A stretch of 64,000 nucleotides of DNA from Vulcanimicrobiota bacterium (GTDB lineage: Bacteria > Vulcanimicrobiota > Vulcanimicrobiia > Vulcanimicrobiales > Vulcanimicrobiaceae): NCBI GenBank assembly GCA_003168375.1, contig PMSI01000001.1:868001-932000 (forward strand), read 5' to 3'. Numbering within the stretch: the first letter of the stretch is position 1; every line of letters starts with the position of its first letter. The notes beneath the pieces were generated by a model, which had not been told where the DNA came from, did no database searches, and saw only the letters and a list, made by a program, of their open reading frames with translations. Below, piece by piece: positions 19,213 through 61,091 of the stretch. A program made the translations under genes and the position numbers.

Positions 19213-19629
19213 ATGAAGCGATTCGTTGCCGCGCTCGCCGCGGCGCTGCTCACCACCGCCGCGGCGTCCGCGCAGACCCCCGGCGATCCGGGGGCCGGCA
19301 CACAGCGCGGCATCGAGGAGGTCAACAACTCGGGTCAGGTCGGGACGGTGACCCTGTTCAACGGCGGTGCCAACACCCGCGTCCTCGTCGAGCTCCACGG
19401 AACGATCCCGGGCCGCGGGCAGTCGGTGCGCTTCTATCGCGGTCCCTCGTGCGACGATATCGGCTCCAGCGGGCCGGCGTACTATCTAACCGACATGAAG
19501 GACGGCGCCTCGCGCTCCGTCGTCAAAGCGCCCGAGGACAAGCTGCTCTCGGGCAATTACAACGTCGTCGTCTTCTCCACGAACGCGGCCGGTTCGCGCG
19601 CCACCGCCTGCGGCCACCTCTACCAGTGA
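19213..19629 (+). CDS. Small exported protein of unknown function
   Basis: 138 residues with a signal peptide (MKRFVAALAAALLTTAAASA, cleavage near AQT) and a beta-rich mature part. The core TVTLFNGGANTRVLVELHG and the two Cys (SCDDI, TACGHLY) suggest a single disulphide-stabilised beta-sandwich. No enzyme motif. GAGGAGG lies 6 nt upstream of the ATG, one of the best ribosome binding sites in the window, suggesting high expression. Its stop codon is in frame with the HAD gene that follows. Confidence 0.7.
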   Translation: MKRFVAALAAALLTTAAASAQTPGDPGAGTQRGIEEVNNSGQVGTVTLFNGGANTRVLVELHGTIPGRGQSVRFYRGPSCDDIGSSGPAYYLTDMKDGASRSVVKAPEDKLLSGNYNVVVFSTNAAGSRATACGHLYQ

Positions 19630-19668
19630 CGCGCACGCCTGCGTGGTTCCATCAGTATCTCACCTGAC

Positions 19669-20379
19669 CTGAGCCGGGTCGAGGCGCTGGTCTTCGACGT
19701 CTTCGGGACGCTCGTCGACTGGCGGACCAGCTTGATCGAAGACCTGACCGCGTTCGGTTCCGAGCGCGGTCTCATCGTCGATTGGCCTGCGCTGGTGGAC
19801 CGTTGGCGCGGGATGTACATGCCCTCGATGGACCGCGTTCGCCGCGGCGAGCGGCCGTGGACCTCGCTCGACGTGCTGCACCGGGAGTCGTTCGACGCGC
19901 TCGCCGACCAGTTCAACATCGCCGCCGCGCTCGACGGGGACGCGCGCCGCTGGTGCGTCGACCGCTGGCACCGGCTGCGGCCGTGGCCGGACGCCGTCGC
20001 CGGGCTCACGCGGCTGCGCACGCGCTACATCCTGGGCACGCTTTCGAACGGCAACGTGCGGCTGCTCGCGGATCTCGCGAAGAGCGCACCGCTGCCGATG
20101 GACGTGATCTTTTCGGCGGAGCTGTTCCGTCACTACAAGCCCGATCCCGAAGCCTACCGCGGCGCAGTCGAACTGCTCGCAACGACACCGGACCGCGTGA
20201 TGCTGGCCGCCGCGCACAACGGCGACCTGAAAGCGGCCGCGTCGACGGGGATGCGCACGGCGTTCGTCGCGCGCCCGACGGAATACGGTCCCGAACAGAC
20301 GCACGATTCGGTCGCTGCGCCGGAGATCGATCTCGCCGTGCGCGACCTCGGCGAGCTGGCGGACCGCCTCGGTGCGTGA
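19669..20379 (+). CDS. Haloacid-dehalogenase type II family hydrolase (non-ATG start)
   Basis: About 236 residues. Motif I is LVFDVFGTLVDW with the nucleophile Asp, motif II LSNGN, the lysine segment HYKPDPEAYRGA, and the last motif LAAAHNGDLKAA; this is the L-2-haloacid dehalogenase branch. The frame has no ATG, GTG or TTG between the upstream in-frame TGA (19627) and motif I. CTG at 19669 gives the usual short lead (LSRVEALVFDV). The ATG at 19732 would delete the nucleophile. It is followed 15 nt later by the acyl-CoA-synthetase-like gene. The substrate could be a haloacid or any small phosphate ester. Confidence 0.78.
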   Translation: MSRVEALVFDVFGTLVDWRTSLIEDLTAFGSERGLIVDWPALVDRWRGMYMPSMDRVRRGERPWTSLDVLHRESFDALADQFNIAAALDGDARRWCVDRWHRLRPWPDAVAGLTRLRTRYILGTLSNGNVRLLADLAKSAPLPMDVIFSAELFRHYKPDPEAYRGAVELLATTPDRVMLAAAHNGDLKAAASTGMRTAFVARPTEYGPEQTHDSVAAPEIDLAVRDLGELADRLGA

Positions 20380-23309: not shown

Positions 23310-24243
23310 CGGGCACCGTCACGGCCGGCGGCTTGCGCATCCTGCGGATCCGGTCGGCGATCCCGAGGATGCCGCGCGGCTCGAAGACGACGATCGCGAT
23401 CAGCAGCACCCCGAACGCGAGCAGGTCGACGTTGGCGAGCGTCGCCGCCAGCTGTTCGCGGATGAACGTGTAGATGACGGCACCGATCAGCGGGCCGGTC
23501 ACCGTGCCGAGCCCGCCGATGATCGGCATGATCACCAGCGCGATCGAGGTCGAGAAGCCGAACACGGAATCCGGGCTGACGAACAGGTAATGCAGCGCGT
23601 AGACGCTCCCCGCGACGCCGAGGATGCACGCCGAGAGGAAGAGTGCCTGGGTCTTCGCGACGGTCGTCGCCACGCCGAGCGTCTCGGCGGCGTCCGTGTC
23701 CTGGCGCACCGCGGCCAGGGCGTAGCCGAACCGCGAGGCGCGGATCCATGCCGCGAGGCCGACGGCGGCGACCAGCAGCGCGAGCGCCGCGAAGTACTGC
23801 AGCAGCAGCGGCGGCGCGCTCGACAGCGTCAGCCCCGAAACCCCGCCGGTCAGCGAGGACCAGTTGCGCGCGATCAGACGCGTCGCCTCGCCGATTCCGA
23901 TCGTCGCGATCGAGAAGTACGGGCCGCGCAACCGGAACGCGGGGATCCCGATCACCAGCGAGTACGCGCCGGCGAGCAGCGCCGAGACCGGAACCGATAT
24001 CCAGAGCGAGATGCCGTTCTGCGTCATGATCGCCGTCGCGTACGCGCCGATCCCCAAGAACGCCGCGTGCCCGAACGAAACCTGGCCCGCGAAGCCCCCG
24101 ACCAGATTCCACGCCGTCGCCATCGCGCCGTACAGGAAGATCAGGAACAGCACGTCGAGCGCGTACTCGGCGTGCGGCGCGACGAACGGGACCGCGATCA
24201 ATGCCGCGATCGCGATCGCGGCAAACGCCGCGTTCCTAGCCAC
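23302..24243 (-). CDS. livM: Branched-chain amino-acid-type ABC transporter permease LivM
   Basis: 313 residues with about nine hydrophobic helices. WNLVGGFAGQVSFGHAAFLGIGAY is the hallmark LivM segment (about 45-68), followed by FRLRGPYFSIATIG. The coupling loop is ALAAVRQDTDAAETLGV, and IIGGLGTVTGPLIGAVIY lies near the end. GTG at 24243 overlaps livH by 8 nt. Confidence 0.92.
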   Translation of the reverse strand: MARNAAFAAIAIAALIAVPFVAPHAEYALDVLFLIFLYGAMATAWNLVGGFAGQVSFGHAAFLGIGAYATAIMTQNGISLWISVPVSALLAGAYSLVIGIPAFRLRGPYFSIATIGIGEATRLIARNWSSLTGGVSGLTLSSAPPLLLQYFAALALLVAAVGLAAWIRASRFGYALAAVRQDTDAAETLGVATTVAKTQALFLSACILGVAGSVYALHYLFVSPDSVFGFSTSIALVIMPIIGGLGTVTGPLIGAVIYTFIREQLAATLANVDLLAFGVLLIAIVVFEPRGILGIADRIRRMRKPPAVTVPDG

Positions 24244-25111
24244 GGCGCAGCGACCGCAGCGTTCCGACGATCCCCTTCGGAAGCGCGACCAGGACGACGA
24301 CCAGCACGACGAACGAGATCAGATCCTGCATCGACGCGGGCATGTACCGCACGCCGAACGCCTCGGCGATCGCCAGCGCGACCGAACCGAACGCGACGCC
24401 GACGATCGAATCGAGTCCGCCCAGCACGACGATGCAGAACGACTTGAGCGAGAGCACGCGCCCGAAATCAGGCGTGAACGAGAACAGCAGCGAGAGCAGC
24501 GAGCCGCCGAAGCCTGCCAGCGCGATCCCGATCCCGAACGCGATCCCCATCACGCGATCGACGTCGACGCCGACCAGCCGCGCCGCGTCGCGGTCCTGCG
24601 CGGTCGCGCGGATCGCCCGGCCGAGGTACGTGCGGGTGAGAAACAGCTGCAGCGCGATCAGGCTGAGGACGCCCATCGCGAACACGTACAGCCGCGGGAT
24701 CGAGAGCTGCAGCCCGCCGAGCTTGACGGTCGACTCGATGAACGAGTTCTCGATCGAGCGCGTGTCGCCGGTCCAGATGACGTAGGCCAGGTTCTGCAGC
24801 ACGAGCCAGACGCCGAACAGTAGCAGCAGCGAGATGATCGGCTCGGAGCCGAGAACGCGCCGCACGAGCGTGCGCTCCAGCCCGACCCCGATCAGGAAAA
24901 AGACGGGGATGATCACCAGCGGCGCGAGCAGCGGGTCGACGTGGTAGGCGGTAAAGAGCCACCACGTCACGTACGCGCCCAGCATCAGGAACCCGGCGTT
25001 GGCGAGGTTGATGATCTTCAGCACGCCGTAGATGAGCGCGAGACCGTACGACATAGCGGCATACAGCCCCGCGACCAGCAGCGCGGAGATCAGGGTCGAG
25101 AGGGTGTCCAG
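24236..25111 (-). CDS. livH: Branched-chain amino-acid-type ABC transporter permease LivH (non-ATG start)
   Basis: About 291 residues, the normal LivH length, with about eight membrane helices. GLALIYGVLKIINLANAGFLMLGAY is the family N-terminal signature (about residues 25-49), IRATAQDRDAARLVGVDVDRV the coupling loop, and SFCIVVLGGLDSIVGVAFGS is typical. No ATG, GTG or TTG occurs in frame at the required position: CTG at 25111 (DTLSTLISALLVAGLYA follows) is the only sensible start, 11 nt after the stop of the binding-protein gene, with AGGCGG 7-8 nt upstream. The first ATG would remove the first membrane helix. Confidence 0.88.
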   Translation of the reverse strand: MDTLSTLISALLVAGLYAAMSYGLALIYGVLKIINLANAGFLMLGAYVTWWLFTAYHVDPLLAPLVIIPVFFLIGVGLERTLVRRVLGSEPIISLLLLFGVWLVLQNLAYVIWTGDTRSIENSFIESTVKLGGLQLSIPRLYVFAMGVLSLIALQLFLTRTYLGRAIRATAQDRDAARLVGVDVDRVMGIAFGIGIALAGFGGSLLSLLFSFTPDFGRVLSLKSFCIVVLGGLDSIVGVAFGSVALAIAEAFGVRYMPASMQDLISFVVLVVVLVALPKGIVGTLRSLRRG

Positions 25112-29969: not shown

Positions 29970-30794
29970 TCAGCCGGAGACGGCGGTCGCGGCTCGCAGC
30001 ACGTCGATGAACGTGCGCGCGAAGGTGTACACGTCGCCGGGCCAACGTGCCGAGACGTAGTTTCCGTCGCGCACGACCCAGGCCGGCCGCGCGTCGCTCG
30101 CGCTGTCGCGGGCCAGCCCCGACGTCTTGAGCGCGTAGTCCGGCGCCGAGCGCGGCACGTCGAGAAAATCGCCGGGCGACGCGAGCGCGCGCGTCACCTC
30201 GGCCTGGACGCTGCAATAGCCGGCCGGATCGTTCGATCCCTCGCTGTACGTGCGGTAGTAGTTCGGGTCCCAAAACCGCGCGATGCGGCCGAGCCTCCAC
30301 GCGCTGCGTTCGAGCGACCAGGTCAGCGCGGTCGTCGTGCGCCCGCGCAGCACCGATGCACCGCTCGCGGACCGCGCGCGCGCCGCGAGCACGACGCCGT
30401 GACAGATCGCGCCGACCGGCTTGCCGCTCTCGAAGAACGCCGCAACGAAGCGTTGCAGCACCGGGCTTTCGAGGTACTCGCGCATCCCGCGCGCGCGGTG
30501 CCCGCCGGGCAGCACCAGGCCGTCGTACGCTTCAGGCTGCAGCTGGGCGTAGGCGACCGGCGCGCGGAACGCCGGGTCGGTGACGAGCGCGCGGTACGCG
30601 GTGCGCGCGGCGCGGTTGGCGCGCAGCAGCCATCCCAACGCCGTCAGTCCGCGTCCGTCGAGCATGATGGGATCGCCGGCCGCCGGCGCGCCGTCAGGCG
30701 TTGCGAAGGTGACCTCGACGCCCGCGCCCCGCAACACCGACCAGCTGACCGCGACCTCCGAGGGGTCGAAGTCCAGCTTCGGCAGCGGGATCAG
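29970..30794 (-). CDS. DJ-1/PfpI family protein (non-ATG start)
   Basis: About 274 residues. The nucleophile elbow is GAICHGVVLAA (Cys, about residue 129), with GLVLPGGHRARGMREYL upstream and a GNYVSARWPGDVYTFAR C-terminus, as in ThiJ/PfpI glyoxalase- or protease-like proteins. The conserved opening VLIPLPKLDFDPSEVAVSW lies upstream of the first GTG (30737). The frame between that GTG and the peroxiredoxin stop (30812-30810) contains no ATG, GTG or TTG. CTG 30794 is used here; ACG 30803 or 30806 is an alternative. The gene is directly downstream of the peroxiredoxin and probably co-transcribed, which fits a stress role. Confidence 0.75.
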   Translation of the reverse strand: MIPLPKLDFDPSEVAVSWSVLRGAGVEVTFATPDGAPAAGDPIMLDGRGLTALGWLLRANRAARTAYRALVTDPAFRAPVAYAQLQPEAYDGLVLPGGHRARGMREYLESPVLQRFVAAFFESGKPVGAICHGVVLAARARSASGASVLRGRTTTALTWSLERSAWRLGRIARFWDPNYYRTYSEGSNDPAGYCSVQAEVTRALASPGDFLDVPRSAPDYALKTSGLARDSASDARPAWVVRDGNYVSARWPGDVYTFARTFIDVLRAATAVSG

Positions 30795-30809
30795 GACGCG
30801 CGTCGTGCC

Positions 30810-60488: not shown

Positions 60489-61091
60489 TCACAGCGTGCG
60501 GCGCCCTTCGATCGCGCGCGCCAGCGTGTTCTCGTCGGCGTAGTCGAGGTCGCCGCCGATCGGCAGCCCGTACGCGAGCCGGGTCACGTTGACGCCGCTC
60601 GGCGCGAGCAGCCGCGAGAGGTAGAGCGCGGTCGCCTCGCCCTCGGCGTTCGGGTTCGTCGCGACGATGATCTCGGTGGGCGATTCGGCCGAGACGCGAT
60701 CGACCAGCTCGCGCACGCGCAGTTGTGAGGGCCCGATCCCGTCCATCGGCGATATCAGGCCGCCGAGCACGTGATAGCGCCCGTCGTACGCGGAGGTGCG
60801 CTCGATCGCGAAGACGTCTTTCGCTTCCGCGACGACGCAGATCATCGCCGCGTTCCGGCGCACGTCGGAACAGGTCGTGCACGGATCGTCTTCGGTGATC
60901 GCAAAACAGCGCGAGCACAAGCGCACGCGCTCCTTGAGCGCGACGATCGCGTCCGCGAGAGCGTCGGCATCGGCGCGCGGCCGGTTGAGGAGGTGGAACA
61001 CGAGGCGCGCGGCGGTCTTCGGCCCGATCGTCGGGAGCTTGCTGAACTCGTTGATCAGCGCCTGGACGGGCGCGGCAAGAGCTGAGGAAAT
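60489..61091 (-). CDS. recR: Recombination mediator RecR (probable ATT start)
   Basis: 200 residues when read from ATT 61091, exactly the RecR norm. HhH region ALINEFSKLPTIGPKTAARL (about residues 11-30), zinc knuckle CSRCF ... CTTC, and Toprim motifs ICVVAEAKDVFAIE and NPNAEGEATALYL. RecR loads with RecF/RecO at ssDNA gaps. No ATG, GTG or TTG lies upstream of the HhH motif: the first, GTG 61001, would delete it. ATT 61091 has AGAGG with a 6-nt spacer and lies 9 nt after the ebfC stop codon, which is in frame. ATT is a known rare start (infC). Confidence 0.88.
   Translation of the reverse strand: MSSALAAPVQALINEFSKLPTIGPKTAARLVFHLLNRPRADADALADAIVALKERVRLCSRCFAITEDDPCTTCSDVRRNAAMICVVAEAKDVFAIERTSAYDGRYHVLGGLISPMDGIGPSQLRVRELVDRVSAESPTEIIVATNPNAEGEATALYLSRLLAPSGVNVTRLAYGLPIGGDLDYADENTLARAIEGRRTL

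Follow-up and report, generated by a model that had tools for sequence, protein, structure and literature searches.

The window analysed here, a stretch of 64,000 nucleotides, contains a gene for a haloacid dehalogenase (HAD) hydrolase in which none of the usual start codons precedes the nucleophile motif. Where does its translation begin, and is the missing start an error, a sign of decay or a habit of the lineage? The window is C4:868001-932000 of G000, a draft genome of 4.43 Mb in 7 contigs (97% complete); MAGs of Candidatus Eremiobacterota / WPS-2 are its nearest named relatives. We call a codon near-cognate when it has one mismatch to ATG.

Probable start of the HAD gene and history of its locus

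Three features make up the locus.

19213-19629, plus strand: exported-protein gene, with its stop TGA 19627-19629 in frame with and directly before the HAD gene
19629-19667, plus strand: 3′ remnant of a dienelactone-hydrolase-like gene, TRTPAWFHQYLT followed by the stop TGA 19665-19667
19669-20379, plus strand: HAD hydrolase, a haloacid dehalogenase type II (TIGR01428) of 236 aa, with CTG 19669-19671 as its proposed start

The HAD protein scores 164.7 bits against TIGR01428, above the curated cut-off of 125.4, and motif I (FDxFGT) with the catalytic Asp is present as FDVFGT. The first-pass annotation had stated that ATG, GTG and TTG are all absent between the in-frame TGA 19627-19629 and this motif, and the letters confirm it. 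After the stop the frame reads R A R L R G S I S I S P D L S R V E A L V F D V F G T, and its first canonical codon is TTG 19732, beyond motif I. Nearly all of about 80 homologous HAD loci from other phyla have ATG, GTG or TTG shortly upstream of motif I.

It is extremely improbable that an assembly or sequencing error deleted the HAD start. The genome is a draft of seven contigs, but the congener G004, which is 96% identical and was assembled independently, likewise has no canonical start before motif I and differs at only two bases in the interval from the stop to CTG 19669. Furthermore, the same pattern recurs at recR and rsfS across tens of genomes. The earlier view that such starts are not random error is thus borne out.

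CTG 19669-19671 sits 39 nt past TGA 19627-19629, and no Shine-Dalgarno sequence is found before it. ATC 19654 was considered as an alternative start and rejected; G004 has ACC there, so CTG 19669 remains the best candidate, as had been proposed. A GTG is found at or adjoining the position of this CTG in the congener loci L006, L009 and L010, and the aligned start position in other congeners is GTG or ATG. The CTG itself is conserved only in G000 and G004. The comparison indicates that HAD translation likely starts at CTG 19669.

The congeners also reveal what stood before the gene. In G001, G002 and G005 HAD is preceded by a gene that ends in QYLT and a stop, or similar, and that we call dienelactone-hydrolase-like from visual inspection of its C-terminal sequence. 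In G002 and G005 the GTG start of HAD overlaps this stop (GTGA). The place is taken in G000 and G004 by an exported-protein gene unrelated to it, for which Pfam and NCBIfam searches of 19213-19629 gave no match. The remnant at 19629-19667 corresponds to the final 12 codons of the ancestral gene together with its stop, matching the C-terminus that ends in AWTRTLSWFRQYLT and a stop in L005, L006 and L009, and its own stop ends one base ahead of CTG 19669. (L005 and L034 are the same G001 contig; L004 and L033 are the same G004 contig, CALEOJ010000352.) The bases at the old junction in G000 and G004 are CCTGACCTGAGC; CTG 19669 is in frame with HAD here and coincides with or adjoins the old GTG. 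The plus-strand segment 19213-19667 records a gene replacement, in which the exported-protein gene supplanted the dienelactone-hydrolase-like gene and left 12 codons and a stop. The shared ancestor of G000 and G004 would have lost the GTG start of HAD beside the dienelactone-hydrolase-like stop, with the operon rearranged too, and the CTG adjoining the old stop would be the most probable surviving start.

With such a history the HAD gene of G000 and G004 could be decaying, its operon rearranged, its start lost and its frame open only through recency. The upstream gene was replaced in the same species that lost the ancestral GTG, the CTG has no Shine-Dalgarno sequence, and dN/dS between G000 and G004 is 0.45, a value that comes from few changes and is compatible with relaxed selection. 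We nevertheless consider decay unlikely. The 236 codons run without stop or frameshift in both species, and against the five other congeners the changes are in excess at third codon positions, with dN/dS of 0.24-0.34. G001 retains the old neighbour in full, and its HAD gene still has no canonical start after the neighbour's stop, so rearrangement is not needed for the loss; the options in G001 are ATC directly ahead of EALVFDVFGT, or a GTG that lies within the neighbour, 23 codons upstream. A canonical start is equally absent in pth, mnmE, recR and rsfS. The HAD gene is probably in use, to judge from its open frame and pattern of substitution.

The exported-protein and HAD frames are in phase across the TGA. 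In principle, HAD synthesis could depend on read-through of TGA 19627, or begin at a distant upstream start and involve a frameshift. Read-through would add a signal peptide to a cytosolic enzyme, and the congeners have no such fusion but a stand-alone start at this place. Read-through from the exported-protein gene was therefore rejected, and this route as a whole is very unlikely.

Proposed near-cognate starts in the window and in the lineage

The first-pass annotation counted four such genes in 64 kb and named only HAD. Three more genes of the window match its description, and with them the count fits.

24236-25111, minus strand: livH permease, proposed start CTG 25111-25109; livK stop TAG 25125-25123
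29970-30803, minus strand: ThiJ/PfpI-like gene, proposed start ACG 30803-30801; upstream stop TAG 30812-30810
60489-61091, minus strand: recR, with RecR domains, proposed start ATT 61091-61089; upstream stop TAG 61103-61101

The distances from the upstream stop to the start are 39 nt for HAD, 11 nt for livH, 6 nt for the ThiJ-like gene and 9 nt for recR. The probability of at least four such genes among about 55 is 0.002, 0.045 or 0.11 at per-gene rates of 1.0, 2.4 or 3.3%.

From CTG 25111, livH encodes 291 aa with the permease domain PF02653 from residue 8. G006 and G001 have the same CTG GAC ACC at this place, preceded by GGGAGG in G006. In the ThiJ/PfpI-like gene the domains PF17124/PF01965 begin 4-10 codons past the upstream stop, and the first codons are ACG CGC GTC in the window, ATG CGC GTG at the same codon in G009 and GAGGAGATCGCAAA-ATC CGC GTC in G010, the last preceded by GAGGAG. 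The ThiJ/PfpI-like locus of G004 (C394; L147/L154) contains two TGA codons that break its frame, and it is apparently a pseudogene.

In recR, AGAGG lies about 7 nt upstream of ATT 61091. Our comparison of this gene covered 31 family and order members. Nine of ten congeners have ATT or ATC at the aligned codon; several other genera have ATC, CTG or ACG and the rest a canonical codon, at about equal distance ahead of AGPVQALINEF. All ten outgroup loci are canonical, and E. coli recR starts with ATG.

The family-wide CTG of rsfS (in G000 at L173:9214-9555, C4:589214-589555) is stronger evidence than the HAD case. Of the 27 family members examined, 26 have CTG and one has ATC, and in most of them an AGGAG/GGAGG-like Shine-Dalgarno sequence precedes the start, usually by 6-9 nt. 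The sister family has ATG in 3/3 genomes and E. coli rsfS has TTG. Since CTG makes up only 42% of Leu codons here, CTG in 26 of 26 would be unexpected for an internal Leu codon (0.42^26 = 2e-10, with kinship ignored). In Methylobacterium, CTG as the start of rsfS was rejected, as an in-frame ATG lies upstream.

The gene for initiation factor IF3, infC, starts in G000 at ATA (CTGGAGAGCAAGTC-ATA; C4 near 1488100, minus strand) with GGAG upstream. Most of the family shares this ATA; the sister family has ATC, the remaining class members that were read have ATT, and one distant genome has ACG. Such class-wide ATA, ATC or ATT starts are as expected for IF3 autoregulation.

For rsfS, recR, the ThiJ-like gene and infC it is clear that the near-cognate codon is conserved or swapped only with other start codons. 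Switches of one codon between species are also seen in a DUF92 gene (GTG/CTG), in ThiJ (ATG/ATC/ACG) and in a hyuA-like gene (TTG/CTG). Taken together, several Eremiobacterota genes, some of them housekeeping, appear to begin at CTG, ATT, ATC, ATA or ACG.

Genome-wide rates and controls

The scan covered 1.6 Mb of the G000 contig C4 and 400 kb each of G006 and G001. Tight same-strand gene pairs were taken in which a coding signal begins right after the upstream stop and no canonical codon occurs within 45 nt, and the matches were curated by eye. The orthologue comparison used a filter on third codon positions; overlapping upstream genes give out-of-frame similarity. Unambiguous starts in the 1.6 Mb of C4 are ATG 317, GTG 260 and TTG 61, and 27% of them have a Shine-Dalgarno match spanning 4 nt or more, compared with 8% inside genes. 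Outside the subject of starts, the locus L205:12303-12597 gives an Rfam match to 5_ureB_sRNA (68 bits; cut-off 40), which is unexpected in this phylum.

The raw scan gave 16/485 in G000, 8/130 in G006 and 7/106 in G001 (31/721 in sum), of which about 11, 6 and 4 were convincing after inspection (21/721). The convincing cases include rsfS, pth (ATC) and mnmE (ACG); in the latter two an in-frame stop lies a few codons before the conserved N-terminus. They also include CTGA overlaps in the hyuA-like gene of two species (TTG in the third) and in the DUF92 gene of G001 (GTG in the other two species).

The high-GC controls were chromids of Methylobacterium, Streptomyces and Variovorax, a small sample of 134 pairs that gave 4 raw matches and 1 after inspection. 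The excess over these controls is not significant, either raw (31/721 vs 4/134, p=0.34) or curated (21/721 vs 1/134, p=0.12). In an E. coli N-terminomics set, 0/688 mapped annotated starts lie outside ATG/GTG/TTG (PMC13245402). Against this set, at least 13/1326 G000 genes (11 scan cases, recR and infC) give p=0.004, with the two sets built by different methods. The genome-wide excess raised by the first-pass annotation is indicated over E. coli, whereas the high-GC controls are too few to establish one statistically over other high-GC bacteria. Its idea of lineage-wide non-ATG initiation holds for at least rsfS, recR and infC.

These numbers bear on whether the phenomenon belongs to this lineage at all. 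Near-cognate starts could be real at a similar low share in all high-GC bacteria, where they would go unnoticed by gene finders that accept no starts but ATG, GTG and TTG. The raw scan rates are alike, a holA-like gene of Methylobacterium bullatum has a CTGA overlap without a canonical start, Streptomyces has GTC at sigR and ATC at infC (PMC5472188), and non-canonical codons are known from Deinococcus deserti, as far as its citation in PMC3564903 tells. The canonical recR and rsfS of the outgroup and sister loci examined speak against it, as does the absence of such starts from the E. coli set. We regard a general high-GC feature as possible, though somewhat improbable. To be noted, the M. bullatum sequence NZ_LR743510.1, labelled a plasmid, bears rsfS near 1398667 as well as the holA-like gene (1013705-1015069, no canonical start near its CTGA overlap), and may be chromosomal.

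Initiation machinery, proposed mechanism and meaning

The first-pass annotation had suggested inspection of IF3 and the initiator tRNA. IF3 is encoded by one full-length copy that aligns end to end with solved IF3s, and the initiator-type anticodon stem CGGGCTCATAACCCG has one exact match in G000 and at least one in 36 of the 41 genomes searched. With both present, lost proofreading is not indicated, and relaxed proofreading is not seen. The near-cognate start of infC itself suggests that the discrimination apparatus works. ARAGORN predicted a selenocysteine tRNA at C4:548419-548512 (minus strand) of G000.

We favour the reading, at a probability of roughly 0.7, that HAD, livH, the ThiJ-like gene and recR are translated from near-cognate starts that are tolerated in this lineage and in some genes selected. 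The ordinary initiator tRNA would read CTG 19669 of HAD, CTG of livH, ACG of the ThiJ-like gene and ATT of recR. A Shine-Dalgarno sequence, or else a ribosome that ends translation of the upstream cistron, would bring the 30S subunit to them, and initiation with fMet would proceed at low efficiency, with IF3 keeping the output low. The Eremiobacterota lineage would then tolerate weak near-cognate starts, and selection would maintain them at rsfS, recR and infC.

The starts of HAD, livH, the ThiJ-like gene and recR overlap or closely follow an upstream stop, and CTGA overlaps occur elsewhere. Coupled initiation as the common mechanism, which the first-pass annotation had suspected from this, is not supported. 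The rsfS gene has its own conserved Shine-Dalgarno sequence before CTG, and with several cases so equipped coupling is not general. Ascertainment explains part of the closeness to upstream stops, because a missing start is visible only there. At CTGA stop-start overlaps coupling is plausible; there and at HAD, ribosomes finishing the upstream cistron may supply initiation. ATGA and GTGA stop-start overlaps are sites of translational coupling. Several CTGA cases have the equal frame relation, with CTG in place of ATG or GTG.

Near-cognate starts as such are already known. The infC gene starts with AUU or AUC under IF3 autoregulation in E. coli and Streptomyces (PMC5472188). The class-wide infC starts here lie likewise at a conserved place, whereas the usage in this lineage reaches rsfS, recR and other genes. 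In Streptomyces, the GTC start of sigR is repressed by IF3 (PMC5472188). It resembles the present cases in being conserved in its lineage with a ribosome binding site and differs in codon and genes, and the IF3 repression found for sigR would here be a candidate mechanism. Deinococcus deserti, by the account cited in PMC3564903 (Baudet et al. 2010), also has several genes with non-canonical initiation codons in one genome, identified there by proteomics, while ours are predicted from the DNA. In the part of the literature covered by our search, we found no report of family-wide rsfS CTG or recR ATH starts, and nothing relevant on start codons in Eremiobacterota.

A further step would be that rsfS, recR, pth, mnmE and others form a selected, family-wide group of near-cognate genes tuned by IF3, with infC as the sensor and with starts that annotation misplaces. 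This is a tentative idea, which we consider rather improbable. If it were true, the level of IF3 would set ribosome silencing and part of recombination repair.

If the favoured reading is right, gene finders limited to ATG, GTG and TTG truncate, extend or miss genes with near-cognate starts. The lineage would offer a natural system for IF3 discrimination as regulation beyond infC and sigR, and for the evolution of near-cognate starts in operons with stop-start overlaps. A whole bacterial family would use a type of start that is usually deemed a curiosity, and a form of gene control that is otherwise rare may be commonplace in this uncultured soil group, the Eremiobacterota.
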